A stretch of 64,000 nucleotides of DNA from Alphaproteobacteria bacterium (GTDB taxonomy: Bacteria > Pseudomonadota > Alphaproteobacteria > JANQMY01). The notes below the pieces were generated by a model. The model saw only the letters and a list, made by a program, of their open reading frames with translations, had not been told where the DNA came from and searched no databases. Every line of letters begins with the position of its first letter. Position 1 is the stretch's first letter. The position numbers and the translations under genes are program-made. Where the stretch lies: contig JANQPL010000019.1 of assembly GCA_028289425.1 (NCBI GenBank), positions 1 to 64,000 of the forward strand. Direction: 5' to 3'. Positions 3,230 through 21,952 of this stretch are shown here, piece after piece.

Positions 3230-3960
3230 ATGCTAACGAGCGATGAAGCGTATCGGAAAATCACTGGGCCGGGCCAACCCTTTGAAATGCAAACTCTCGA
3301 AATTGGCGAGCGAAAAATGCGGATTTACAAAAATGCCGCAAACAGTCTGAAGAGAATTTTGCTGTCTACTGATCGTTTCGATGACAGGGTCGCCATTGTT
3401 TATGAAGATGAAAGACTGACATTCAAGGACCTCAGAAACCGTGTCGCAATCCTCGCAAATTGACTGACTGATGAGGGGATAGAAAAAGGCGACCGCATTG
3501 CAATTGCCATGCGTAACTATCCAGAATGGATTATCGCATTTTGGGCGGGCCAAGTTGTTGGCGCAGTCGTCGTCGCCATCAATGCCTGGTGGAGCCCCAA
3601 AGAGATCGCACTCGCCCTTTCTGACTCAGCACCAAAGGTGTTGTTTGCGGATGGTGATCGTTGGCGGCAAATGACGAAAAACAATCAACGTCCCGAGGTG
3701 CCGACAAATGTCATTACGCGGTTCAGCGGTGAACTACCGCCTTCAGCCCATGATTGGTCCTCAATTGTTCAAGCCCAACGTCACACAGAAATGCCGGACG
3801 TTGATATCGCTCCTGAAGACCTTTCAACAATCCTCTATACCTCCGGAACAACGGGTATTCCCAAGGGTGCCGTCGCCACGCATCGTTATCACTCGACATA
3901 TGTTATGAGCACCTTGTACTTCGGGGCGCGCGGCATTGAGAGCGAAACTGGCGTCGCATG
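3230..3960 (+). pseudogene. Acyl-CoA synthetase (AMP-binding), nonsense-mutated and truncated
   Basis: The N-terminal ~240 residues of an ANL-superfamily AMP-forming ligase can be read in one frame. The first block (AIVYEDERLTFKDL) ends at an in-frame TGA (3461-3463) exactly inside the usual LANxLTDEG helix. The frame then continues without a shift through GDRIAIAMRNYPEW to the P-loop-like ILYTSGTTGIPKGAV. After about residue GARGIE (near 3940) homology stops; the tail to 4075 is unrelated. The adenylation core, C-terminal lid domain and catalytic lysine are missing, and I find no C-terminal half elsewhere in the window. One point nonsense mutation plus a deletion or insertion breakpoint makes this a clear pseudogene. 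The break coincides with the edge of the recombinase/ParB cassette. Confidence 0.85.
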
Positions 3961-4119
3961 TTTCCAATCAATCCATTTATCAGCATTCGCAAACTCAAGG
4001 ACGCCGTCTGATAGTTTATCAAGCTGTCCGACCAACTTGCTATTTATGAATACGTTCAATCTCTGGCTTAACTGAGCTATCGCCACAGAACGGGTTCCTT
4101 TCGCAACAATATCAATCAA
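3889..4119 (-). CDS. Short ORF spanning the ligase/cassette junction, unknown
   Basis: A 76-residue minus-strand frame with a TTG start at 4119, directly downstream of the second ParB gene (32 bp gap). Its first ~55 residues (up to KWIDWKH) look protein-like and lie outside the ligase remnant; the last ~20 are the antisense of the ligase pseudogene, so the junction runs through it. It may be the truncated last gene of the recombinase-ParB cassette. No family recognised; coding status uncertain. Confidence 0.3.
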   Translation of the reverse strand: MIDIVAKGTRSVAIAQLSQRLNVFINSKLVGQLDKLSDGVLEFANADKWIDWKHATPVSLSMPRAPKYKVLITYVE

Positions 4120-4151
4120 TAATTTGTCGGATAGGATTGTTTGGACCCTAC

Positions 4152-5006
4152 CTAGGAATCGAAATCCTGCATTTCCTGCAACAGTTCGGGCGATTTCTTC
4201 GCCAAGTAACGCACCACCCTCGCGTTACCAAGCAGTCGATTGCAGTAGTGTCCCAGCATGGTGTGGCGCGTCAGCTCTTTTCCAAAGTTAGCTTCTGCAA
4301 CGACCACGCGTTTCTGCAGCTTAGAGAGCTCGCGTCGCATCTTCGCCCTATCTCGGTCCGACAGTTTTCCACCGGGCCGCAAATCGGCCCTCTTACGAAG
4401 TTGATCCGGCCGACTAGCAGTTAGGAGAGCAACGGCGTAAGGCCGCTTAAAATTGTCAGCAACGCACATAAGGTTAGCCATCTCTATCTGCCTTTGCTTC
4501 TTCGCGCGCCGAATGATTTTCATTGTGGTAATGGGCACTTGTTTATCCTTGAGCACACGTGCTGCGTCGGGATATATGCCGTCGAGCAAATGAAGTCGTT
4601 TGTTCACAGAAGCTTGGTTTAGCCCCAAGATCTCCGAGATCTTGTCCTCAGGAACTCCCTTTTCAACCGCCTTCTTTATCATCAGGTGTTCCTGGATCGG
4701 CGTAAGCCGATTGACCTGCCTGTTATATGTGTAGTGCTCGTCCACTTTTGCCACGATGCACTCAACAGACTTCCACCCCAGTTCCCTTAAGGCCTCAAGA
4801 CGCCAATGCCCGTCTAACAACGCGAAGTGATCCCCGTCGCCGGTCGGCGCGACAACAGGTGGCTCCACCAAACCGATATGTTCTATTGAGCTCAGTATCT
4901 GAGCGTATTTAGTGGACTTAAGAACACTGGTTGCAACTTGGCGAACAGGAAGGATGTCTGAAATCCTAATTGTTTTCGTCTTTGTCTCAAAAGCCTCGGA
5001 TCTCAT
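4152..5006 (-). CDS. ParB-like protein, plasmid RepB C-terminal type
   Basis: 284 residues. The N-terminal ParB/sulfiredoxin-like fold is recognisable from LLDGHWRLEALRELGW (about residues 64-79), equivalent to the ParB GxGxRR/xxA motif, here DGHWRL. It is followed by a helix-turn-helix region (DKISEILGLNQASVNKRL). The usual ENxxR box is replaced by RQVNRL, so CTPase activity may be altered. The C-terminal half is helical and basic, like plasmid RepB C-terminal domains. Its start overlaps the stop of the preceding ParB gene by 4 nt (ATGA), showing translational coupling. Third gene of the recombinase-ParB-ParB operon. Likely DNA-binding; whether it segregates, regulates or directs the recombinase cannot be told. 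Confidence 0.75.
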   Translation of the reverse strand: MRSEAFETKTKTIRISDILPVRQVATSVLKSTKYAQILSSIEHIGLVEPPVVAPTGDGDHFALLDGHWRLEALRELGWKSVECIVAKVDEHYTYNRQVNRLTPIQEHLMIKKAVEKGVPEDKISEILGLNQASVNKRLHLLDGIYPDAARVLKDKQVPITTMKIIRRAKKQRQIEMANLMCVADNFKRPYAVALLTASRPDQLRKRADLRPGGKLSDRDRAKMRRELSKLQKRVVVAEANFGKELTRHTMLGHYCNRLLGNARVVRYLAKKSPELLQEMQDFDS

Positions 5007-5905
5007 TTGTTCGCCTGCCTACGTTTCACGAGCAGATCACCCTTTATAGCTGCCGGCACATCATCCAATCCCTCTTCTCGCAGGATCGTTCGAAACTCAC
5101 GATCTTTTAGTGCCTCCTTGAGTTTCGTAAGGACGGAAACCGAGTGAACTTGTACTTCTTCGAACCGTTCAACGAGGTGTTGCTGCCGATCGGTCTCTTG
5201 GCGATAAGCTTTCAAAAGTGATTTCAGGCTTTTGCGCGTATCAGCGCTTTTCCCACGCGACCCGGTTCTCCGGCCATACTGCATTCTTCCTAGCGCAATT
5301 CGCTTTATCGTTTTTAGAGCTTTTTCGTCGAGCTGATTTTGTTCGTACAATAGTTGGAGATCCTTCTGATCACCCGTTTTTGCAATCCGGCTAATCTCAA
5401 CAGCAATTGATATTGGCAGACGTCCAGCCTGAACACAGTCAATTAGGCGTTCCTCACCATGTTCAAAAAGGAAAAGGATGTCCCTTAGATACTTGGTCGA
5501 TAAATCAGTCATCTGAGAGATTTCAGACAACTTGTACCCTCGCTCTCTCAAAAGCCTGAGGTCATTCGCTGCCTCCAAACCAGTTGGTTTGTGACGTGCG
5601 ATGTTCTCAACCAGACTCATAAGATAGGCATCTGTCTGGCTAATTTTCCGGATAACGGCTGGGATATGGGTTTCGCCCAATTTGTCATATGCCTCGAGGC
5701 GACCCTGCCCACAAACGAGACGATACTTTTTTCCTTGTTTCCCAGCGCCCATTCGCGAAACAGTGATTGGTCTTTTCAGCCCGAGGGCGTTGATGTTCTC
5801 GACAACTCCTTGAAAGACTGTCGGATCCCGGCTTCGCGGATTTGCGATTTCAATCTCAGCTATAGGAATTTTCTGAATTGCGCGTGTAGTCACCCTTTTC
5901 GTCAT
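5003..5905 (-). CDS. ParB/Spo0J-like DNA-binding protein
   Basis: 300 residues with a canonical ParB N-terminal domain: the CGQGRLEAYDKLG segment (about residues 65-77) and LVENIARHK (about 97-105, the ENxxR box that contacts CTP in ParB). A helix-turn-helix follows (KLSEISQMTDLSTKYLRD). The C-terminus is long, basic and helical. There is no ParA partner and no obvious parS nearby, so an ordinary segregation role is doubtful. Its start and stop each overlap the neighbouring genes by 4 nt (ATGA), placing it between the serine recombinase and the RepB-like protein in one tightly coupled operon. Confidence 0.8.
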   Translation of the reverse strand: MTKRVTTRAIQKIPIAEIEIANPRSRDPTVFQGVVENINALGLKRPITVSRMGAGKQGKKYRLVCGQGRLEAYDKLGETHIPAVIRKISQTDAYLMSLVENIARHKPTGLEAANDLRLLRERGYKLSEISQMTDLSTKYLRDILFLFEHGEERLIDCVQAGRLPISIAVEISRIAKTGDQKDLQLLYEQNQLDEKALKTIKRIALGRMQYGRRTGSRGKSADTRKSLKSLLKAYRQETDRQQHLVERFEEVQVHSVSVLTKLKEALKDREFRTILREEGLDDVPAAIKGDLLVKRRQANK

Positions 5906-7461
5906 AGCAAATCCCCCAACGAAACCAATGCGAATTGACCCAGCGCTTTGCTCAATGTGTCGTGGCGAAATTCTCCGTACTTTGCTTCGTTTTGAGGCGT
6001 AAGAGTGAATTGGTAATGGCGGTTCAGTTCCGTTGGCATGAGATAGTAATCACGGATTTGAGAGTTGTGTTCATCCATGCGCACCATCAGCAGAAACTCC
6101 GAAAAAGGTTGCTCATTGATACACGCGGTCCAACGCATCTTTTCACGCATCGTTGGAAGGAAGTTTAGGATGACGGGTCTAAGGGAGGCCTGCTCATCAA
6201 GCTTGAATGTTCCTTGTGTTGACCGCTCGCACTTAAGACCAAGTGTGTTAGCGACTTGAATAACGGCGCGTTCGATTTTGGAACGTGTGGCTTTGTTTTT
6301 ACTTCGCGCGTCTAGCCACGCTGTGCTCTTAATGCCGTCGTATCCGGCCTGTCGGTAACCTTCTCGGTAAGAGCCAAACTTTCTCGCAACACTTGAATGA
6401 GATATCGGACAGTCGGGTTCTCTCAGCAGCTGTCCCGAAATTTTTCCGTATTTCTTTAGCGTGAGTTTGAGACCGTTGAGCACTTCCGCTTCTGTGTAAC
6501 GACGCTTTCGCCGCTCCATCGCTTCTTGAGCCGCTACGAAGGTTTTCATATCAACGATGGCATCGTGGGCATTCTCCACCCTAACCCACTCTTCTTTCGG
6601 CAAACTGATGGATGGGCGCTGCATTCGTCTTATCGCCGTGCACGCGACCAGTGTGCCTGCATATTTTTCTGAATGTAGCATTCTTCGGATGGTCGAGGCA
6701 TTCCACGGTTTTCCTCTCATGAGACGCCCCGCTTCATTGAGACGCTTGGCAATAGTCCTGCAACCTAGATGCTCTTCAGAACACAAAGCGAAGATGTATC
6801 GAACAGTTTCGACCTCTTCTCGAGGTCCGAGGACAAGCCGCGTCCTAACACTCTGACGAACCTTTAGCTCCTTGTTGTCTAGTACGGTACAAAGCCGGCC
6901 GGTCTGGTCGATGATGCCTCTTCGAAAGCCATATCCAGGCGAACCACCTATCCAGAAGCCTTTGGATGCAACGTTTTTCTGTCCATGAGCCACTTTCACC
7001 GACAGGTCGCGGCTGTATTCGCCAGCCATCGCACGTTTGACGCTTTTGAAGATGACAGTGAGCGGGTCGCCGTCATTCACAAATGGCTCTGCACAATATT
7101 GAACATCGACACCGTTAGCACGGCAAAGGAACTCGTAGTGTGCTGCTTCGTCTGCGTCTTGAAACCGGCCCCAACGGCTCACGTCATATACTAAGACCGT
7201 TTTGAAACCGCATTCGCCAGATACGACGTCTTTGATGAGTTGTGATAGCGCTTTTCTTTGCGAGATTGTAAGACCGCTCTTACCATCGTCGGAATAGGAT
7301 GAGACTACCTCATAGCCGTGCCGCGTTGCATATTCTTGGATGGCAATGCGCTGATTCTCGATTGAGTATTCCTGCCGCTCTGAAGACATGCGCAGGTATT
7401 GCGCGGCCTTGATTTTGGAAGACGCGCCGACCACAGCATGCCTGGCCAGTTGCTCCTGCAT
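5902..7461 (-). CDS. Large serine recombinase (resolvase/invertase superfamily)
   Basis: 519 residues. The catalytic domain begins YLRMSSERQ, with the nucleophile serine expected at residue 26 and the neighbouring arginine R24. Further catalytic-domain landmarks are YDVSRWGRF and the FKSVKRAMAGEYSRDL helix. The recombinase domain (about residues 165-280) carries GGSPGYGFRR and the PWNASTIRRMLHSEKYAG motif typical of PF07508. Most members of this class integrate or excise DNA at att sites. The C-terminal 200 residues are unusual: basic, no obvious zinc ribbon, with repeated short helices (SHSSVARKFGSYREGY). First gene of the operon with the two ParB-like genes. Start ATG 7461; an inverted repeat lies about 110 bp upstream. 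Confidence 0.9.
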   Translation of the reverse strand: MQEQLARHAVVGASSKIKAAQYLRMSSERQEYSIENQRIAIQEYATRHGYEVVSSYSDDGKSGLTISQRKALSQLIKDVVSGECGFKTVLVYDVSRWGRFQDADEAAHYEFLCRANGVDVQYCAEPFVNDGDPLTVIFKSVKRAMAGEYSRDLSVKVAHGQKNVASKGFWIGGSPGYGFRRGIIDQTGRLCTVLDNKELKVRQSVRTRLVLGPREEVETVRYIFALCSEEHLGCRTIAKRLNEAGRLMRGKPWNASTIRRMLHSEKYAGTLVACTAIRRMQRPSISLPKEEWVRVENAHDAIVDMKTFVAAQEAMERRKRRYTEAEVLNGLKLTLKKYGKISGQLLREPDCPISHSSVARKFGSYREGYRQAGYDGIKSTAWLDARSKNKATRSKIERAVIQVANTLGLKCERSTQGTFKLDEQASLRPVILNFLPTMREKMRWTACINEQPFSEFLLMVRMDEHNSQIRDYYLMPTELNRHYQFTLTPQNEAKYGEFRHDTLSKALGQFALVSLGDLL

Positions 7462-9767: not shown

Positions 9768-11027
9768 TCAAGACTCGTTTGCGCTCAAGCGGGCCATCTG
9801 GTCGGTAAAGGCCTCAATCGCTGCAAGCCATTGATCTTGCACTTCCAAGAGCATGACGATTGTCGGGGGATTGCCGTCCTTGCTGACAAACCAGCTCTTA
9901 TCGTTTTTGATCACATTGCCGTCGATGGCTGCCCTGAGGGCCTCGATGTAAGAACGACAAACCGACTTCTCTTCCGGCGTCTCTGTTGCCCACTCCAACG
10001 GATCGGTGCGCACTTTCCCGTTGGAGGCGATGGACGCGAGATTGAAGCTCTGACCGTCAGGCCTCTGCCATTTGAGGCTCATGGCCCGTTTGAGGTCCGG
10101 CAGGACACCTAGTGGCTCAAGCCGTTCGACAAATTCCCGTAATTGCCGCGGCAGTGTTGGATCGGAGATGGCCAGTTGCTCATAGAACATTTCGTGAGTG
10201 ATGGAGGTGCGTCGGCCGCTCCCTGACGCGCGCGAGCTGCTCGTTTCAGCGGGTGCGGAGATGACAAGCCCGCCTGTCTCCGCGCGAACTATGCCGCGTT
10301 CAATATTGATGGTCCGCGCTAGGATGCGCGGCTGCACAAGGTAGGTGTCGTCCTCCGTCAGGCGATGAACCGATAGCTCGACTAGCCCCAAGGTGAAGTG
10401 GGCGCCTGCGTGACGCTGGAGATACTCAGCGAGGTTCTCAGACCCTTGGCGAATACCATCGCCGACAATAAGAAGAAGAAACCGGCCAAGCTTGAGATTG
10501 CGCGTGACCGCATCGACAAACTCCGCTTCCGACAAAACATCCGCATCGGCCACGTAATTGTAGAGTTTTGAGTCCGGCCGTTGACCGTCAAAACCTTTTG
10601 CGCTTCCGATCGCTTGTTCGAGATCTTCATAACTGCAGCGGGACAGGGCATCGGCATAGTCGATAATTTGTGCAACGACCTGTCGCCGCGCTTCGGGATT
10701 GCGCCACAGCTTGCATTCTACGAGGATCAAACCGCCTGTGGGCGTCACGAAGAGATTGTCGATAGGACCTGCACGTGTCGGCAATTCCCGGCAGACGGCA
10801 ACACATGGAGAAAGGCTCGGTTCCAGTTCGGAGATGGGAAGCAGGGCTGGCTTTCGAAAGATCAGATCTTGAAGCCAATCTTCGTCGAAAGAGTCATCCC
10901 CATCGCCCCGCAGCGGTACCGGCGCCAAATCAACGATCTGTGGTTCAGCTCCCGCCTTGGAGACCAAAAGAGGCCGGCCGTATTGGCGGGTGCCTACCGC
11001 ACGTACATTTCGGTCATCAAACCCCAT
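9768..11027 (-). CDS. PD-(D/E)xK nuclease-like protein
   Basis: 419 residues. A restriction-endonuclease-type core is visible: D90 in GPIDN, then FVTPTGGLILVECKLW with E104 and K106, followed by the R..VVAQIIDYA helix, giving the D-x13-ExK pattern. The N-terminal DEDWLQDLIFRKPALLP helix also resembles NucS/Shedu-like nucleases. The C-terminal half has no recognised domain but ends in helices. ATG 11027 is preceded by AGGTGAG. It is divergent from an XRE regulator with an inverted repeat between them, and followed by the VasI-like membrane gene. This layout resembles controller-regulated restriction genes; a defence role is inferred, not shown. Confidence 0.7.
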   Translation of the reverse strand: MGFDDRNVRAVGTRQYGRPLLVSKAGAEPQIVDLAPVPLRGDGDDSFDEDWLQDLIFRKPALLPISELEPSLSPCVAVCRELPTRAGPIDNLFVTPTGGLILVECKLWRNPEARRQVVAQIIDYADALSRCSYEDLEQAIGSAKGFDGQRPDSKLYNYVADADVLSEAEFVDAVTRNLKLGRFLLLIVGDGIRQGSENLAEYLQRHAGAHFTLGLVELSVHRLTEDDTYLVQPRILARTINIERGIVRAETGGLVISAPAETSSSRASGSGRRTSITHEMFYEQLAISDPTLPRQLREFVERLEPLGVLPDLKRAMSLKWQRPDGQSFNLASIASNGKVRTDPLEWATETPEEKSVCRSYIEALRAAIDGNVIKNDKSWFVSKDGNPPTIVMLLEVQDQWLAAIEAFTDQMARLSANES

Positions 11028-12220: not shown

Positions 12221-13645
12221 ATGAGCAGGCGCAGATTACCGAAACCCTCCAGAACATCTAGGCCAGCTTCAGGAAATCGCCGGAAGCGGAAAACCAAAAG
12301 CACCGACCTGGTTGCGGTCGTGCGAAAGACAAACGGCAAACTGGAATTTGAGCTTGTTCCAATCAAGGCGATACGGATCAATCCGTATGCCGCGCGCACT
12401 CACACCAAAGATCAAATCGAACGGCTTGTGCGTCTCTACATGGAGTTTGGCTTTGTCGTCCCGATTGTTATCGATGAAAACAACGTCATTCTCGCAGGTC
12501 ATCTGCGATTTGCCGCGGTACTAGCGCGAGGCGACCAATTCATTCCTGCCGTTCGCGTTTCCGAGTTGTCGGAAAGACAAAAACGGGCGTTCATGCTCGC
12601 GGATAACAAACTAGCCGAGCTGTCGGGTTGGGATCAAAGAAAGGTTTACCAGGAGCTTTGTTTTCTATCCGGTGCGGATCTTTCGATAACGATAGAAGAC
12701 ATAGGGTTTGACATTGCAGAGATTGACCTCACCTTCCAAAACCACGGCGATCACAATCTGGCCCGCGCAGAGGTCATGCCGAACGAGGCCGACCTACCCA
12801 AGGTAACGCGCAAGGGCGATATCTGGATTATCGGGAGGCACGTCCTGATCTGCGGTGATGCCCTCGATCCATATACGCTGCGCGCGCTCCTTATGAGCGA
12901 AACCGCACGGATCGTCGTTACCGATCCTCCCTACAACGTCAAAGTCGACGGCCATGTAAGTGGCAAGGGGGCGAAGAGGCACCGAGAGTTTGCCATGGCG
13001 TCCGGCGAGATGTCTGAGGCCGAATTCAGACAATTCTTATGTGAAACCCTGCAAAACCTTATTGCCTATTCCGATAACGGTGCCCTGCTCTACATCTTTA
13101 TGGACTGGCGTCACATCCGCATCTTGCTCGATGCGGCGCGCGAGTTGGGCCTCACCCTGCATAACATCTGTGTCTGGTCGAAGACCAATGCCGGCATGGG
13201 CAGTATGTATCGATCGCAGCACGAACTGGTTGCTGTGTTCAAACACGGCAATTCCCCTCACATCAACAACATTAAACTCGGCAAGTATGGCCGTAATCGC
13301 AGCAATGTCTGGACTTGCGCAGGTGCCAATAGTTTCGGCGGCGATCGCTCTGAGATGCTGGATATGCACCCGACCGTGAAACCGGTTGAGCTGATCAAGG
13401 ACATCATCCTTGACTGCACCAAACGAGACGACATCGTCGTCGACTGTTTTGCCGGTTCTGGGTCCACCATTCTCGCCGCCGAAATTACCGGACGACGCGC
13501 CTACGCCGCCGAAATCGACGAACTCTATGTGGATACCGCGGTCCGCCGCTGGGAGGCTTACACAGGCGCGCAGGCAGTCCACGCGGACACAGGCATGACA
13601 TTCGCCGAGATGACCGATGTGCGCAATCCACCGGCCTCGGACTGA
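12221..13645 (+). CDS. ParB-domain/DNA adenine or cytosine-N4 methyltransferase fusion
   Basis: 474 residues. Residues about 45-170 form a ParB-like domain (INPYAARTHTKDQI, then ILAGHLRFAA, the equivalent of the GxGR box). Residues about 185-450 are an N6-adenine/N4-cytosine methyltransferase: catalytic motif IV VTDPPYN near 230, HPTVKPVELI, and SAM motif I VDCFAGSGST near 407. Motif IV before motif I is beta-class order. Phages and integrated elements often carry such ParB-MTase fusions without a cognate endonuclease. It starts the plus-strand set with DUF5681 and terminase. Protection of element DNA, or pairing with the divergent nuclease, are both possible. Confidence 0.9.
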   Translation: MSRRRLPKPSRTSRPASGNRRKRKTKSTDLVAVVRKTNGKLEFELVPIKAIRINPYAARTHTKDQIERLVRLYMEFGFVVPIVIDENNVILAGHLRFAAVLARGDQFIPAVRVSELSERQKRAFMLADNKLAELSGWDQRKVYQELCFLSGADLSITIEDIGFDIAEIDLTFQNHGDHNLARAEVMPNEADLPKVTRKGDIWIIGRHVLICGDALDPYTLRALLMSETARIVVTDPPYNVKVDGHVSGKGAKRHREFAMASGEMSEAEFRQFLCETLQNLIAYSDNGALLYIFMDWRHIRILLDAARELGLTLHNICVWSKTNAGMGSMYRSQHELVAVFKHGNSPHINNIKLGKYGRNRSNVWTCAGANSFGGDRSEMLDMHPTVKPVELIKDIILDCTKRDDIVVDCFAGSGSTILAAEITGRRAYAAEIDELYVDTAVRRWEAYTGAQAVHADTGMTFAEMTDVRNPPASD

Positions 13646-13740
13646 CGCCATGGCAACGCAAACCGCCATCACATCATACAACCAATTGGAGGGGAATGAA
13701 GTGAAACATCACCCTAAATCAATCTTTATACGGAGGTACT

Positions 13741-14130
13741 ATGCCAAAGGACAATGACAAGGTCGGCTATAAAAAGCCACCGAAAAGCGGACAATTTAGG
13801 AAGGGGCAATCAGGTAACCCCAAAGGACGTCCGAAAGGTGCAAAGAGCCTAAAAACCGAACTCTTAGAAGAGTTGAATGCCATGATTACGGTGACCGAAA
13901 ACGGAAAGACAAAAAGAATCACACGTCGACGTGCAGTTCTATTGCGGCTCATTGGGAAAGCTTTTGAAAGCGATGTGCGCGCCATTTCACAACTTGCCAA
14001 GCTGGCTTTGGAGGCTGAACGCGAGGTGGAAAAAGCCGCCCCGGCAAAGGATATCACAGAAAGTGATCGAAAGATCATGGAGCGGCTTGAGAAACGAATT
14101 GCTCTCAAACACAAAGAAAAGGACGGGTAA
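13741..14130 (+). CDS. DUF5681 domain protein
   Basis: 129 residues. The N-terminus has the DUF5681 signature GYKKPPKSGQF-KGQSGNPKGRPKG, a glycine/lysine-rich basic arm, followed by a helical middle (ENGKTKRITRRRAVLLRLIGKA) and a charged C-terminus. An excellent ribosome-binding site (CGGAGGT) precedes ATG 13741. In alphaproteobacterial genomes this family is regularly next to a large terminase, which here begins only 3 bp downstream, so a small-terminase-like or terminase-accessory role is a fair inference; direct evidence is lacking. Confidence 0.85.
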   Translation: MPKDNDKVGYKKPPKSGQFRKGQSGNPKGRPKGAKSLKTELLEELNAMITVTENGKTKRITRRRAVLLRLIGKAFESDVRAISQLAKLALEAEREVEKAAPAKDITESDRKIMERLEKRIALKHKEKDG

Positions 14131-14133
14131 CCA

Positions 14134-15618
14134 ATGACAGACACTTCTTTTACAACCGAAGAGCTTGACGCAATTCTGCGGACTGATTTTCAGGCATTCA
14201 TGGAGAAAGCCTTTGCTGAACTTAATCCAGGCAAACAATTCGTGGACGGTGAATATATCCAAGCGATGACCTATTCATTGGTGAAAGTTGCAAATAGAGA
14301 AACAGGTCGGCTGGTGGTCACCATGCCTCCCCGATATCTGAAAACTCATTGCACGACCATCTCTTTCGTGGCTTGGCTGCTTGGTAAGGATCCGACGCTA
14401 AAGATTGTATGTGTTTCATACAACGAGAAACTCGCTCACGATTTTTCGATTCAATGTCGAAAAGTCATGAAATCAGACTGGTACAAACGAGTTTTTCCGA
14501 ACACGGTTATTGATGCAGACAAAGACACGGCAGCTGAGTTTTGGACTACCAAAGGTGGCGCGCGAATTGCAACCTCAATTGGCGGAACGGTAACTGGAAA
14601 AGGGGGCGACATTATAATCCTGGACGACCAAATGAAGGCCGACGATGCCTTGTCGCAAGTGGCTAGGACAAAAGCGATCAATTCTTATCGAAATACGTTG
14701 CTTTCCCGCCCAGACGATAAGTCGGCGGCCCGCTTCATCCTTGTCGGACAGCGTCTCCATATTGATGATCTTGTAGGTTACATCCTCGAAAACGAAGAAT
14801 GGGATCATCTCAACCTCCCGGCAATCGCGACGGAGCATCAAGAGATTGAAATTGGCGAGAGCTTGGTATGGCACCGTACGCCGGGTGATGTACTACACAA
14901 AGAGCGCGAGACACGAGAAGACCTGGACAAGCTCAAGAAAGCGATGGGTCCGTTTGCTTTTGAAGCTCAGTACCAACAATCTCCAGTGCCTGAGCAAGGC
15001 AATCTTTTCAAGAAGGAGTGGATTCAGCGATATGACAAGCCTCCGGGCGTCGATGCCATGGATATGATAGTCATATCCTGTGACACGGCATCCAGCGAAG
15101 GCGAAAACAACTCATACTCGGCCTGCCTTGTGTTCGGGGTTAAAGACAAACGTTACTACCTTCTAGATGTACACCGCGGTCAGTGGCTCTATACAGACCT
15201 TAGACGAAACATCATCAAACTCTGTCAGGGCTTTCCGTCGCCGGTACTTCTTATCGAGAAAGCTTCATCAGGCTTGCAACTGTTACCGGACCTTTCTCAA
15301 AATAGTAGTTTCAACCCCATTGGCATACCTCCTGAGAAAGACAAGGCCGTTCGGTTCGGGCGCGAGAGTGTTGCCATCGAGGAAAAGCGCCTCTTCCTTC
15401 CAAAGGACGGTCCATTCATCGCAGATTTTGAAAAAGAACTACTGACGTTTCCTATGGGGAAACATGACGATCAGGTCGACGCATTAACGCAATTCTTGTA
15501 TTGGATGCGACAGCGTGAACAGCCGAAGCCGACAATGAAAGTCTACACAATGGACATGTTCTCGGACGGTCCAAGTGACTATGATTTTGCAAAGGTGACC
15601 GGCCTTGACAAGCTTTAG
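14134..15618 (+). CDS. Phage large terminase subunit (TerL-like)
   Basis: 494 residues. ATPase half: variant Walker A MPPRYLKTH (residues 64-72), a VCVSYN strand, and Walker B IIILDD (160-165); TGKGGD and VGQRLH also match the family. Nuclease half: ISCDTASS (RNase-H-like first aspartate), LIEKASSG and the C-terminal KHDDQVDALTQ. This is the TIGR01630-type putative large terminase, complete in length. It packages DNA into phage heads in known systems, but no portal, protease, capsid or tail gene follows; the next gene is on the opposite strand. Either a degraded prophage or a module reused by the element. Confidence 0.9.
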   Translation: MTDTSFTTEELDAILRTDFQAFMEKAFAELNPGKQFVDGEYIQAMTYSLVKVANRETGRLVVTMPPRYLKTHCTTISFVAWLLGKDPTLKIVCVSYNEKLAHDFSIQCRKVMKSDWYKRVFPNTVIDADKDTAAEFWTTKGGARIATSIGGTVTGKGGDIIILDDQMKADDALSQVARTKAINSYRNTLLSRPDDKSAARFILVGQRLHIDDLVGYILENEEWDHLNLPAIATEHQEIEIGESLVWHRTPGDVLHKERETREDLDKLKKAMGPFAFEAQYQQSPVPEQGNLFKKEWIQRYDKPPGVDAMDMIVISCDTASSEGENNSYSACLVFGVKDKRYYLLDVHRGQWLYTDLRRNIIKLCQGFPSPVLLIEKASSGLQLLPDLSQNSSFNPIGIPPEKDKAVRFGRESVAIEEKRLFLPKDGPFIADFEKELLTFPMGKHDDQVDALTQFLYWMRQREQPKPTMKVYTMDMFSDGPSDYDFAKVTGLDKL

Positions 15619-15995: not shown

Positions 15996-16478
15996 TGACG
16001 CTCAGTGGAAACCGGAAGTCAAGAGTACTAGGTGACAGGCTAAAGCATTAGCGCCGACATGGCATAGTTGTCACGTCTAGGCGCGAATGGCCAATGGGCC
16101 TTATGTAAATCCAGCGATGATCTGCGCCCTGGGCGGCGCCTCAATTATCCTGCTGGGACATTTGTAAACTGCCAAAGTGGGAGATTACTAACTTGCTGCC
16201 ACAACAAGCTGGGCGGATAACGTGTCTTATGGAAAATTGCCGAGTTTGTTGAACGTCTGTATTTCGCCATTCTCTGCCGTTCACAGTCTAAACCTGTATG
16301 ACCGCTATGCGCGCATAACCGGACATGCATTTGAATACTCTAGGGGACACCACCGTTGTTTCGGGGTAGAATTTGAAATCATTGGAAATGTGAAAAAATA
16401 CGGATAACTCTGCAATGAAGTCAAAAGTGCAGTTCTGAAAGGTCGTTTGATCGATAATTGTGGGAACGGGATAGCGGC
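15996..16478. other. Intergenic region before the ATPase gene
   Basis: Nearly 480 bp without a credible gene. Promoters for the ATPase should be here, and the stretch just before it is AT-rich (around 16385-16460). No clear hairpin or repeat is visible. Confidence 0.4.
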
Positions 16479-18770
16479 ATGATCGAACATGTTCAACTTC
16501 TCAGAAATGTCGGGGTGTTCGATAATCACAGCCCCCCGCAGCAGACAGCGTTTACGCCGTTCACCCTGATATATGGGGAAAACGCTCGCGGCAAAACCAC
16601 ACTCGCTGCGATTCTCCGCTCTTTGGCGACAAACAACCCCGACCTCGTTGTTGAGCGCCACAGGCTTGGAGCTCAACATCCCCCGCATATCGTTTTCAGC
16701 CACCCAGGAGGGCAGGCGATATTTCAAAACGGTGCGTGGTCACAATCGTTGCCGGACATCGCGATCTTCGATGATGCATTTGTCTCAGCCAATGTCTGTT
16801 CCGGGATTGAACTTCAAACCACGCACCGTCGACACTTGCACGAGCTAATTCTCGGCGCGCAGGGCGTAGCACTCGATGCAGCGCTTCAGGGCCATGTCAC
16901 TCGGATTGAAGAACACAACACTGCGCTGCGTGAGCTTGCCGAAGCGATACCGACACGGGCCCTAGGCCCCTACAAGGTCGATGCCTTCTGTAATCTCGAT
17001 GAAGACCCGGACATCGATCAAAAGATTCAGGACGCCGAACGCCGACTTGCAGCAGCGAAATCAGCTGATGTTATAAGGCAAAGACCAGGTTTTCAGACAA
17101 TCGGTCTTCCAGACTTTGATACCGACGGATTAAATGACGTTCTCGGACGCACTCTTGCCGATCTGGAAGCAGCAGCAGCCGAACAGGTGCGCGCCCATAT
17201 CGCAAAGCTGGGTGATGGCGGTGAGTCTTGGGTTTCGGATGGCATGACGCGAATTGCGCCCGCGTCAGAAAGCCAAGAAGGTGACGTGTGTCCGTTCTGC
17301 GCGCAAGACCTCTCAGGCTCTGATCTAATCGAACATTATCGCGCTTATTATAGCCAGGCCTACGAAGACCTGAAGGCTGCCATTCGCCAAACCGGGATTA
17401 CAGTGCGCAATGCTCATTCAGGCGATATTCCAGCCGCTTTTGAGCGTGACGTGCGCACTGCCGCACAGGCGCATGAATTTTGGAAGGATTTTGCCGAGCT
17501 ACCGGAAATTGATATTGATACCGCCGCCGTGGCGCGTGATTGGAATGCCGCGCGAGACACCGTACTCGAACAGCTTCGTGCAAAGGCTGCCGCTCCACTG
17601 GAGCCCTTGGCGTTAACGCAGGAATCCATCGAGGCCATCCAAAATTATCGCAGGCATATCGGTGAAGTTGCAGCTCTTTCCGAGCGACTTGTCGCCGCAA
17701 ACGATCGCCTCGATATCGTCAAAGAACAAGCTGCAGCGGACGACCTTGCTGCCCTGAGTACTGACCTCGCCAAACTGCAAGCGCAAAAAGCGCGCTACGA
17801 TCCCGCTGTGGTGCCGCGCTGCAATGCCTATTCGTCCGAGAAGGACGCCAAAACCGCGACCGAGGCGCTTCGTACCCAAACCCGCGCGGCACTGGATCAG
17901 TACAGAGAACAAATTTTCCCGACTTTCGAGGGTGCCATCAATGATTACTTGCAGCGCTTTGGGGCATCGTTTCGCCTTGGAGAAGTCCAGTCAGTCAATA
18001 CGCGGGGCGGATCAACCGCTTCCTATTGCGTCGTCATCAACCAGCAAAATGTGGATATCACCGCAGACGAAGGCCCGTCTTTTCGAAACACGTTAAGCGC
18101 AGGAGACCGCAACACGCTCGCTCTCGCGTTCTTTTTTGCGTCGCTCGATCAAAACCCCAATCTTGCGAACATAGCGGTCGTAATCGACGACCCCATGACC
18201 AGCCTTGACGATCACCGTACCTTGCGGACACGCCAGGAAATCATAGCGATGGCGGCGAGAGTACAGCAGGTGATTGTCTTGTCTCATTCCAAACCGTTTC
18301 TGTGCAGCCTGTACGAGCAAGCAGACAAAAATGTAGTGATCCCCTTGCGCATCAATAGAGCTGCTGTCGGGTCAGAGATTACCGTTTGGGACGTGCGTAA
18401 TGACAGTATCTCAGAACACGATAAGCGGCATGAACTAGTAAGGGAATATCTGCGAGTTGCCGACCCTGCCAAAGAGCGCGAAGTTGCGCAGGCTTTGAGG
18501 CCGATCTTGGAGGCCTTTATGCGTGTCGCTTATCCAGAGCAGTTTCCGCCCGGAACATTGCTTGGGCCGTTCATCGGACTATGCGAACAGCGAGTCGGTG
18601 GTAACAATGAGGTTCTCTCAGTCCCCGACATTGCCGAACTCAGGGCTTTGCTCGACTACGCCAATCGCTTTCATCATGACACTAATCCCGCTTGGCAAAC
18701 GGCTGCGATAAACGATGCAGAACTCACTGACTTCTCACAGCGAACGCTGATTTTTGCGTCCAGACGCTAA
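16479..18770 (+). CDS. AAA_13 ATPase with zinc hook, RloC/PrrC-like
   Basis: 763 residues from ATG 16479 (a TTG at 16458 is possible). ABC/SMC-type ATPase split by a coiled coil: Walker A GENARGKTT (33-41), long charged helices (about 135-240 and 280-470), a CPFC zinc hook at 271-274, ABC signature LSAGDRN (539-545), Walker B AVVIDD (566-571) with SLDD, and H-loop histidine 603. The C-terminal 110 residues contain R674-x3-E678 and FHHDT (731-735), which recall the Arg-Glu-His set of PrrC/RloC anticodon nucleases, though spacing differs. RloC couples DNA-damage sensing to tRNA cleavage as a phage defence. I propose a defence role by analogy; nuclease activity is unproven. Confidence 0.8.
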   Translation: MIEHVQLLRNVGVFDNHSPPQQTAFTPFTLIYGENARGKTTLAAILRSLATNNPDLVVERHRLGAQHPPHIVFSHPGGQAIFQNGAWSQSLPDIAIFDDAFVSANVCSGIELQTTHRRHLHELILGAQGVALDAALQGHVTRIEEHNTALRELAEAIPTRALGPYKVDAFCNLDEDPDIDQKIQDAERRLAAAKSADVIRQRPGFQTIGLPDFDTDGLNDVLGRTLADLEAAAAEQVRAHIAKLGDGGESWVSDGMTRIAPASESQEGDVCPFCAQDLSGSDLIEHYRAYYSQAYEDLKAAIRQTGITVRNAHSGDIPAAFERDVRTAAQAHEFWKDFAELPEIDIDTAAVARDWNAARDTVLEQLRAKAAAPLEPLALTQESIEAIQNYRRHIGEVAALSERLVAANDRLDIVKEQAAADDLAALSTDLAKLQAQKARYDPAVVPRCNAYSSEKDAKTATEALRTQTRAALDQYREQIFPTFEGAINDYLQRFGASFRLGEVQSVNTRGGSTASYCVVINQQNVDITADEGPSFRNTLSAGDRNTLALAFFFASLDQNPNLANIAVVIDDPMTSLDDHRTLRTRQEIIAMAARVQQVIVLSHSKPFLCSLYEQADKNVVIPLRINRAAVGSEITVWDVRNDSISEHDKRHELVREYLRVADPAKEREVAQALRPILEAFMRVAYPEQFPPGTLLGPFIGLCEQRVGGNNEVLSVPDIAELRALLDYANRFHHDTNPAWQTAAINDAELTDFSQRTLIFASRR

Positions 18771-19406: not shown

Positions 19407-19804
19407 ACAATTTCGGCACAATAGGATTGAAAAACCTAAACCGCAACGAACTGGCAAAAGAATGGGAGATTGTTTTCCGGTGCCCTGCCCCCAAGGCGGT
19501 CGGAAAACGAGTTCTAAGAGCGGCGCTCACCCATTACGCCCAATCAAGAAAACACGGCGAACTGACACCATCATGCAAGCGGCAGTTACTTCGTTCTCTG
19601 GAGCCATCCCAAAAAGCGAACAAGAAACGACAAACACTCCAAACCGGGACCAGACTCATTCGTGATTGGAATGGTCAAAAGCATGTTGTGGAGGTGATCG
19701 AGGACGGAATTGTCTGGAATGGGCGCATCTTCTCCTCTCTTTCGGCCATCGCCCGTGAGATCACAGGCGCTCGTTGGTCCGGACCGCGCTTCTTCGGCCT
19801 ATGA
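19403..19804 (+). CDS. DUF2924 domain protein
   Basis: 133 residues, GTG start overlapping the previous stop by 4 nt. Hallmarks of DUF2924: the N-terminal LNRNELAKEWEIVFRCPAPK, the GTRLIRDWNGQKH strand, and the end VWNGRIFSSLSAIAREITGARWSGPRFFGL region, which recalls a small DNA-binding motif seen at integrase N-termini. The ATG of the recombinase overlaps its stop by 4 nt. Function undescribed to my knowledge; tight coupling suggests an accessory protein of the recombinase. Confidence 0.88.
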   Translation: MNNFGTIGLKNLNRNELAKEWEIVFRCPAPKAVGKRVLRAALTHYAQSRKHGELTPSCKRQLLRSLEPSQKANKKRQTLQTGTRLIRDWNGQKHVVEVIEDGIVWNGRIFSSLSAIAREITGARWSGPRFFGL

Positions 19805-21456
19805 AAATGCAGAAGCTGAAATGCGCGGTTTATACCCGTAAGTCCACTGACGAGGGGTTGGACCAAGAGTTCAACTCCCTCGATGCCCAATGGGAGGCGT
19901 GTAGTGCCTATGTCAAAAGTCAAATTGGTGAAGGATGGTCGCTCAACAACAAACGGTACGACGATGGCGGCATTAGTGGCGGTACGTTGGAACGCCCAGC
20001 TCTCCAAAGCCTATTGGAGGACATTCGATTGGGTCGCGTCGATGTCGTGGTCGTTTACAAAGTTGATCGCCTTACAAGATCGCTGACCGACTTTGCCAAA
20101 CTCGTCGAATTGTTTGATGAACACCAAGTGTCGTTTGTTTCGGTGACCCAAGCGTTCAACACCACCTCATCTATGGGGCGACTTACGCTCAACGTTCTTT
20201 TGTCGTTTGCCCAGTTCGAACGGGAAGTCACGGCAGAACGCATTCGAGATAAAATTGCCGCCTCCAAAAAGAAGGGGATGTGGATGGGCGGCTCAGTGCC
20301 GCTTGGTTATGACGTGCAGGACAAGAAGCTCATCATCAATCATGCCGAGGCAAAAACTGTTCGAACCGTTTTTGATCTCTACCGAAAGCACCGAAATGTC
20401 CGATTGGTTCAAGAAGAAACGGAGAGATTGGGTCTCCGTACGAAAGCACGCGGACAAGGCGATGGCGGAAGGACTTCTGCTAGCTCCTTCCAACGAAGCC
20501 ACATCTATCACCTTCTTTCAAACCCGCTCTATTTGGGAAAAGTGAAACACAAGAAAGAGATCTATCAGGGCGAACATGACGCCATTATCGAGCAGACGGT
20601 GTGGGAAGAAGTACAAGAAATCCTTGCAAAAAACTGTAGGGAGGGCAAAGTTCGGATACGGGCGAAAAACCCTTCTCTTTTAACCGGATTACTATTTGAT
20701 GATTCCGGGGAAAGACTCTCGGCGGACCATGCCAACAAAAATGGCAAACGCCATCGGTATTACAAGTCACCTTCAAACTCACTTCGCACTTCTATCGACA
20801 CCGCACTTCGCATTCCTGCAGCAGAAGTGGAAACAGCTGTTATTAGAGCAACTTCGGAATTTCTCAACGACGAACGAGAACTCAGCAACTACTTTGCTGA
20901 GCTCGACACAGACCAGTTTCCAGCACTGACGGCGAGAGCAAAGGAAATCGCATCACGACTTGCTGAAAACCAGGTGGTCAATGGGCGATCATTAGCGATT
21001 GAGGTATTCGATCGGATCGTCATCAATCAAGATTCACTTTCCATCTCGATACGGAAAGAGTGTCTTGTTGGTGAACCCATTTCTGAATCGATCGAGTTTG
21101 TTCACCCAACGAAAATCAAACGTCGCGGCGTCAGCGCAAAACTCATCCTAGAGAACACCAACGCCAGCAACTCCCAACCTGACGAGAACCTCATCAGACT
21201 TGTTGCGCAGTCGGTTAAGTGGTTCGATGAACTGAAATCGGGTGAAGCAAATTCCATCGCCGACATCGCTACTCGGGACCAAGTAGATCGCAACGAAATA
21301 AGCCGCCTCTTGCCAATTGCCTTTTTGGCGCCTGATTTGATCGAAAAAATTCTAAAAGGCGATCACCCAATCTCGCTTACCGCCAACCGCCTCAAACGGA
21401 TGAGCAACTTGCCAATGGATTGGCAGGAACAACGCAACCTTTTTGCATCGCTCTAG
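19801..21456 (+). CDS. Large serine recombinase of the DUF2924 cassette
   Basis: 551 residues from ATG 19801. The catalytic domain starts CAVYTRKSTDEG with the serine nucleophile at about residue 15, then LDAQ, YDDGGISGGTLERPALQ, VYKVDRLTRS, and SFAQFEREVTAERIRDKI. The recombinase domain (about 165-270) shows VPLGYD and HIYHLLSNPLYLGKVKHK. The zinc-ribbon region is atypical, with no cysteine pair near LLTGLLFDDSGERLS. It is compatible with unidirectional integration. Last gene of the DUF3489-DUF2924-recombinase operon; the 3' flank carries a long stem-loop and then a tRNA, marking the likely right edge of the island. Confidence 0.92.
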   Translation: MKMQKLKCAVYTRKSTDEGLDQEFNSLDAQWEACSAYVKSQIGEGWSLNNKRYDDGGISGGTLERPALQSLLEDIRLGRVDVVVVYKVDRLTRSLTDFAKLVELFDEHQVSFVSVTQAFNTTSSMGRLTLNVLLSFAQFEREVTAERIRDKIAASKKKGMWMGGSVPLGYDVQDKKLIINHAEAKTVRTVFDLYRKHRNVRLVQEETERLGLRTKARGQGDGGRTSASSFQRSHIYHLLSNPLYLGKVKHKKEIYQGEHDAIIEQTVWEEVQEILAKNCREGKVRIRAKNPSLLTGLLFDDSGERLSADHANKNGKRHRYYKSPSNSLRTSIDTALRIPAAEVETAVIRATSEFLNDERELSNYFAELDTDQFPALTARAKEIASRLAENQVVNGRSLAIEVFDRIVINQDSLSISIRKECLVGEPISESIEFVHPTKIKRRGVSAKLILENTNASNSQPDENLIRLVAQSVKWFDELKSGEANSIADIATRDQVDRNEISRLLPIAFLAPDLIEKILKGDHPISLTANRLKRMSNLPMDWQEQRNLFASL

Positions 21457-21875: not shown

Positions 21876-21952
21876 TGGTGGGCCCGGTAGGACTCGAACC
21901 TACGACCAGACCGTTATGAGCGGTCGGCTCTAACCAACTGAGCTACAGGCCC
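21876..21952 (-). tRNA. tRNA with CAU anticodon (Ile2 or elongator Met)
   Basis: On the minus strand a full cloverleaf can be folded: acceptor GGGCCTG/CGGGCCC (one G-T pair), D arm AGCTCAG..GAGC, anticodon stem GACCG/CGGTC with loop CTCATAA, T arm GTAGG TTCGAGT CCTAC, discriminator A and an encoded CCA. The first pair is G-C, so it is not initiator tRNA. The GGGCCTG acceptor resembles alphaproteobacterial isoleucine tRNAs, favouring Ile2, whose C34 becomes lysidine. Its 3' end faces the recombinase island. Confidence 0.93.

Follow-up and report, generated by a model that had tools for sequence, protein, structure and literature searches.

A serine recombinase encoded with two ParB-like proteins: a conserved trio and probable integration module for tRNA 3' ends

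Described systems and the trio

Large serine integrases such as phiC31, Bxb1, LI and SPbeta YokA combine a Resolvase with a PF07508 domain and use a short att core. In the classical enzymes a zinc ribbon contacts the outer half-site and bears the coiled coil (PMC3783163). The 3' ends of tRNA genes have been thought to be the target of a different enzyme class. According to the Islander paper, serine integrases were not known to target tRNA genes; since then, a serine integrase at tRNA-Arg has been listed for a Variovorax prophage (PMC9658991). The locus analyzed here encodes a serine recombinase (Rec) and two ParB-like proteins (ParB1 and ParB2), together called the trio. Rec has the domains and the short att core of the large serine integrases, but it lacks the zinc ribbon, has another C-terminus and two ParB-like partners, and its elements reside at tRNA 3' ends.

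The nearest precedent is the group of ssrA genomic islands of Dehalococcoides, which carry a DsiB/DsiA serine-recombinase integration module beside att (McMurdie 2011, PMC3146451). Common features are an att site at the 3' end of a tRNA-like (tmRNA) gene, a ParBc-domain protein, variable cargo, and tandem accretion. In contrast to the trio, the Dehalococcoides module has six genes with a second small serine recombinase and RecF-like and Mom-like genes, it encodes one ParBc protein of 210 aa, the direct repeat is 20 bp long, and ssrA is the only target (PMC3146451). Also the gene order DsiB, DsiA, RecF, ParBc, Mom is not matched, because the trios place two ParB-like genes directly after Rec. 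The Ccr system of SCCmec is likewise a serine system of several proteins, and CcrB is the best NCBIfam match of Rec, although its 52 bits are far below the cut-off of 900 bits. It differs from the trio in its target, rlmH, in the absence of ParB partners, and in having a second recombinase, CcrA, as the partner. The last comparison concerns RepABC and ParABS systems, whose RepB, Spo0J, Noc and KorB proteins resemble ParB1 and ParB2 in sequence and predicted fold. The trio, however, has neither ParA/RepA nor RepC, the CTP-binding motifs are altered (ParB1) or lost (ParB2), and the ParB-like genes always come after a recombinase.

A published description of the trio was not found in a search of openly accessible literature. 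The trio is a real, widespread and undescribed variant of the serine-recombinase integration module, inserted at at least three tRNA species in hundreds of genomes. We infer that it may also explain the largest serine recombinase group of Paracoccus prophages, the integration sites of which had not been found (PMC6536676). As a case open to direct testing, it presents ParB-fold proteins that would serve site-specific recombination rather than segregation, and it may be a source of new integrases directed at conserved tRNA ends.

Conservation of the three genes and their proteins

In the window, i.e., the whole analyzed stretch of 64,000 nucleotides, the trio is encoded on the minus strand. Rec (519 aa, 5902..7461) was assigned by Pfam, an AF2 model, Foldseek and conserved residues. 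ParB1 (300 aa, 5003..5905) was assigned by Pfam, an alignment and PDB profile matches, and ParB2 (284 aa, 4152..5006) by Pfam, alignments, an AF2 model and Foldseek; they belong to phrog_3951 and phrog_31451, respectively, and both groups have no function assigned there. The three frames, their order and strand, and the 4-nt ATGA overlaps on the sense strand at both junctions were all reproduced as the initial annotation had given them. The window carries rpoD, dnaG and carAB, and thus it is chromosomal.

The annotation had further proposed that the ParB-like genes belong with the recombinase, and this was borne out across genomes. ParB2 matches were present in 16 of the 289 alphaproteobacterial genomes searched, and 15 of these 16 contained all three genes. 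Conversely, Rec matches were found in 21 of 385 genomes, 18 of which also had both ParB genes; the remaining three had one fragment and two divergent Rec relatives. The Rec relatives in G178 and G384 occur without ParB genes. ParB genes mostly without a recombinase were, therefore, not observed. The absence of a ParA or replication gene was likewise confirmed: the AAA_31 profile had zero matches on the contig of the window, and no ParA homologue, and hence no ParA partner, was detected in the 1.86 Mb surrounding 110 trios.

ParB2 homologues were found at 548 places in GTDB genomes, 80 of which were fetched for locus analysis, at 56 in IMG/VR and in 102 plasmid records, among them P. aeruginosa IncP-2, Sphingobium, Agrobacterium and Roseomonas plasmids. 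For the IncP-2 copy an empty relative was sought in the plasmid set, and none was found. In the 136 loci fetched, the order Rec-ParB1-ParB2 and the common strand are kept in essentially every uncut locus. The gap between Rec and ParB1 is -4 in 44 and -1 in 43 of the 110 complete trios, and between ParB1 and ParB2 the commonest value is again -4 (58/110). The recurrence of these junctions shows that the gene overlaps are not due to chance. By its distribution, the trio is an ancient conserved unit. A phage-only interpretation was rejected, because only one match was found in 50,697 phage records, and that one was an unverified faecal contig of 7.5 kb.

Upstream of Rec, a small divergent HTH gene is present in 96 of 140 loci. 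In addition, the palindrome GGCACANNTGTGCC precedes Rec in 32 of the 110 trios (e.g., L067, L057 and L093) and has zero copies elsewhere in those loci; it is missing from most clades and from the window. The palindrome was considered as a possible parS-like centromere. In the tRNA-fMet group the divergent HTH gene contains it among its first codons, where it codes for a repeated MGTxVP motif.

On pSymA of Sinorhizobium meliloti (L164, L165, L169) multiple decayed ParB2 copies per replicon were observed beside RelE/ParE toxin-antitoxin genes. These relics are a graveyard of trio-type elements, and they were too degraded to be of use for att mapping.

The window copy of Rec matched Resolvase with 82 bits and Recombinase PF07508 with 67 bits. 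The catalytic domain comprises about residues 17-150 and PF07508 about 215-318, followed by a helical region (305-371), a helix (380-406) and a beta domain (about 411-487). The AF2 model had a pLDDT of 78.8, and its top Foldseek matches were serine integrases (complexes of phiC31, Bxb1 and SPbeta). Y22, R24, S26, R96 and R99 are conserved across the Rec alignment, and the catalytic serine S26 is invariant. Both the PF00239 resolvase catalytic domain and PF07508 are present in all 33 Rec members, whereas Zn_ribbon_recom matches none of the 33. A Cys4 pattern past residue 319 was also sought, and only a single common Cys column (28/33) was found. Instead, the C-terminus has a helical stretch, with weak similarity to HNH_repeat in 12 of 33 members, and then the beta domain. 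The designation as a large serine recombinase thus holds with respect to size and the Resolvase and Recombinase domains, but not with respect to the zinc ribbon, and Rec would be LSR-like in its working without being a typical LSR member. The lack of the zinc ribbon raises the suspicion that DNA recognition or synapsis is provided by the ParB-like pair.

ParB1 matched ParB_N with 41 bits, and its RepB-type C-terminal part matched weakly, below the threshold. ParB2 matched RepB PF07506 with 106 bits and ParB_N with 25 bits, slightly below the cut-off. In a profile comparison, homology between the two proteins extended over ParB_N plus the helix-turn-helix region (probability 96%, E 1e-9). The PDB profile matches of ParB1 were Spo0J, Noc and ParB, the AF2 model of ParB2 (pLDDT 84.5) matched ParB and Noc in Foldseek, and KorB was among the structural relatives of both.

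The motif pair of ParB CTPases, GERRxRA and ENxxR, is intact in neither protein. ParB1 has kept ENxAR in 19 of 19 sequences (ENIAR in the window copy), and GERR is changed to GQGR or GEGR. In ParB2, box II reads DGHxR instead of GERR, and ENxxR is replaced by TYNxxxNRL, i.e., E by Y and R by I or V. The reported loss of the ENxxR box from the second ParB was seen throughout the alignment, in which TYN[KR].. takes its place and Y and N are invariant in 38 of 38 sequences. Judged from these sequences, ParB2 has lost both nucleotide-binding motifs and probably does not hydrolyze CTP, and ParB1 may still bind a nucleotide. The search for a defence system was negative, since PADLOC gave no system match for the trio and only a weak MTase_II match over the N-terminus of ParB2.

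Element ends, tRNA targets and proposed function

The clearest case is L043, a 5,923-bp element in a Sphingomonadaceae genome, which is located at the 3' end of tRNA-Pro(CGG) and has the 6-bp repeat TGGTCG at both ends. The empty site is present in the congeneric genome G424 (L224), in which both flanks are contiguous with 90% identity. Against the L043 genome itself, the joined flanks match as two segments that share just the six bases TGGTCG. The attP of this element type reads ...GCGCGTATTGAA-TGGTCG-TGTATCG..., and the same ends were found in other contexts in L068 and L060. Besides the trio, the element carries toxin-antitoxin and HTH genes: a RelE/HTH pair, an HTH regulator that diverges from Rec, and a further small HTH gene. 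No second recombinase was found within it. Its contents and the empty site show that the trio is the sole recombination function of a defined integrative element. This comparison establishes the short core and the defined attB at the level of the family, and not for the copy in the window.

The comparison of integration boundaries suggested by the annotation was carried out, and it revealed a fixed distance between trio and att. Related elements with otherwise different content are homologous from a sharp left end to shortly past ParB2; in loci other than the window, the end of the conserved module lies about 100-220 bp past ParB2, frequently at a hairpin that resembles a terminator. In one large clade of Rec the elements have TGGCGGAG as their left end, which equals the tRNA-Ser 3' end CTCCGCCA in reverse complement. 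Its distance to the ATG of Rec is 610 bp in six loci, 655 bp in two, and about 1,380-1,393 bp in five, and 27 upstream copies were counted versus 7.7 expected. The native downstream sequence of tRNA-Ser (...CGCGAGGGCAAG) forms the flank in eight loci, and in L187 and L088 it is contiguous with an undisturbed tRNA-Ser. In Ruegeria pomeroyi SZCCDBG043 (L081) the tRNA-Ser and the native flank are separated by 20,023 bp, and the trio is at the flank end. Among the Pfam-scanned proteins of this 20-kb island are a helicase-nuclease, a WYL regulator and an IS256-type transposase, and no site-specific recombinase other than Rec.

The 3' end pointed toward the trio in 18 of 20 tRNA predictions near trios, and tRNA-like 3' ends (T-arm plus CCA) were about fivefold denser upstream of Rec than in the remainder of the loci. 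A single junction was mapped in the fMet group; an att copy at the far end was sought in two contigs and not found. The partial tRNA copies on the fMet contigs have the anticodon loop as their starting point and could be parts of nearby tyrosine elements. In five loci of a Rhodobacteraceae group (L057, L062, L078, L093, L115) a Fic gene, DUF4172-like by eye, is situated between tRNA-fMet and the trio.

On the Rec tree the Ser, fMet and Pro targets can be placed with 3 changes, versus 13.6 for shuffled labels, and the target tRNA goes with the Rec clade. Host taxonomy does not explain this pattern, because Ser-target and fMet-target clades both occur in Paracoccaceae. The correlation alone does not prove which gene sets the target, since the att labels share the inherited DNA of Rec.

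The combined results make it probable that the trio is an integration module for tRNA 3' ends, with Rec as the catalytic integrase and, less certainly, ParB1 and ParB2 as obligatory partners. It would serve small islands, prophage-type elements and plasmid-borne copies that enter tRNA 3' ends. Rec would recombine a short core of about 6-8 bp in attB and attP, presumably made up of the CCA end and the part of the acceptor strand next to it. ParB1 and ParB2, made through translational coupling, might bind close to att or to the promoter of the operon. There they would provide sequence recognition, synapsis or control of directionality, i.e., the job of the zinc ribbon and coiled coil in classical integrases. 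We infer that the pair represents accessory DNA-binding factors of a three-protein serine integrase; the synapsis or directionality role that the annotation had suggested, att recognition, operon regulation and maintenance of the excised circle may all be compatible with the data. A more specific version can be offered only tentatively: recognition and synapsis or directionality may have moved into a heteromeric ParB clamp with one nucleotide-dependent and one dead member, and the target tRNA may have changed repeatedly.

Three other explanations were weighed. The ParB-like pair could be KorB/RepB-like regulators whose targets are the operon together with the divergent HTH gene, and which time the movement without taking a direct part in recombination. 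The restriction of the palindrome to the region upstream of Rec, the frequent divergent HTH gene, and the relationship of both proteins to KorB would fit. However, the HTH protein could own the palindrome, which most clades lack, and two paralogues, maintained through very deep divergence and invariably placed behind Rec, exceed the need of one repressor; we regard this explanation as unlikely. Alternatively, Rec alone would recombine, and the pair would stabilise the excised circle as a clamp or by partition, without ParA or with the ParA of the host. ParB on integrative elements is usually read as a maintenance factor (PMC5704250), and ParB1 has kept ENxAR. This role is quite improbable given that ParA is absent around 110 trios, ParB2 has lost its motifs, Rec is without the usual DNA-recognition domain, the coupling with Rec is tighter than segregation requires, and trios occur on elements of just 5.9 kb.

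The trio could also be cargo with an unrelated function, if the islands were moved by a tyrosine integrase or by ser2, a second serine recombinase of the window. Another serine or tyrosine recombinase was present in the fetched DNA of 28 of 122 loci, the window included, and a few of these are Rec fragments. Ser2 adjoins a tRNA in the window, L067 and L059, and on some plasmids and prophages a tyrosine integrase occurs along with the trio. This explanation is very unlikely, because the L043 element and the L081 island have no other site-specific recombinase, the homology of otherwise unrelated elements runs from the att core to just past ParB2, and the ser2 of L075 falls outside the TGGCGGAG that opens the trio element.

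The window copy and its island

The window Rec has at most about 42% identity to any other Rec found and a very long branch in the tree. At the ParB2-side edge of the trio lies a truncated, frameshifted acyl-CoA synthetase gene (3230..4075, plus strand). It is whole in a same-genus relative, the 574-aa protein of which matches up to position 3936, and its 3' half is absent from the window; the edge of the acquired DNA was thus placed at 3937..4151. The neighbours on the Rec side are metabolic genes, a ParB-methyltransferase/terminase pair, a defence-like ATPase, ser2 (19774..21456, plus strand, of the canonical type) and tRNA-Met(CAT) (21876..21952, minus strand, predicted with ARAGORN), the 3' end of which points toward the island holding the trio. 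No repeat of the tRNA-Met 3' end of at least 12 nt was found as an att of the window copy, and the two flanks of the island are on different contigs in the same-genus relative.

Trio-type islands accrete in tandem (L067, L075, L068), so the tRNA-Met junction is probably that of ser2, the probable integrase of another element that accreted at this tRNA. Because all three genes are open, the module may be intact despite the decay of the element. The trio copy of the window is very divergent and lies at the margin of a decayed island by tRNA-Met. The arrangement around ser2 recurs in L067, where a serine recombinase is encoded beside tRNA-Ser. Members of this second family were observed by tRNA-Ser, tRNA-Met or a tRNA-Ser-like att core in L067 (15606-17285), L059 (10887-11891), L075 (4205-6484) and the window, and another serine lineage may therefore also target tRNA genes.

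Further genes of the window were noted. The 419-aa protein encoded at 9768-11027 has no Pfam match and is weakly similar to the candidate defence family PDC-S11, and a 770-aa AAA ATPase of the candidate defence family PDC-S06 (240 bits) is encoded at 16458-18770, on the same island as the trio. At 12221-15618 a gene for an N6/N4 DNA methyltransferase fused to ParB_N is followed by a terminase large subunit gene. This is apparently a phage remnant of the 'ParB-Tls' type, an arrangement that has been described as a phage feature in Paracoccus prophages (PMC6536676).
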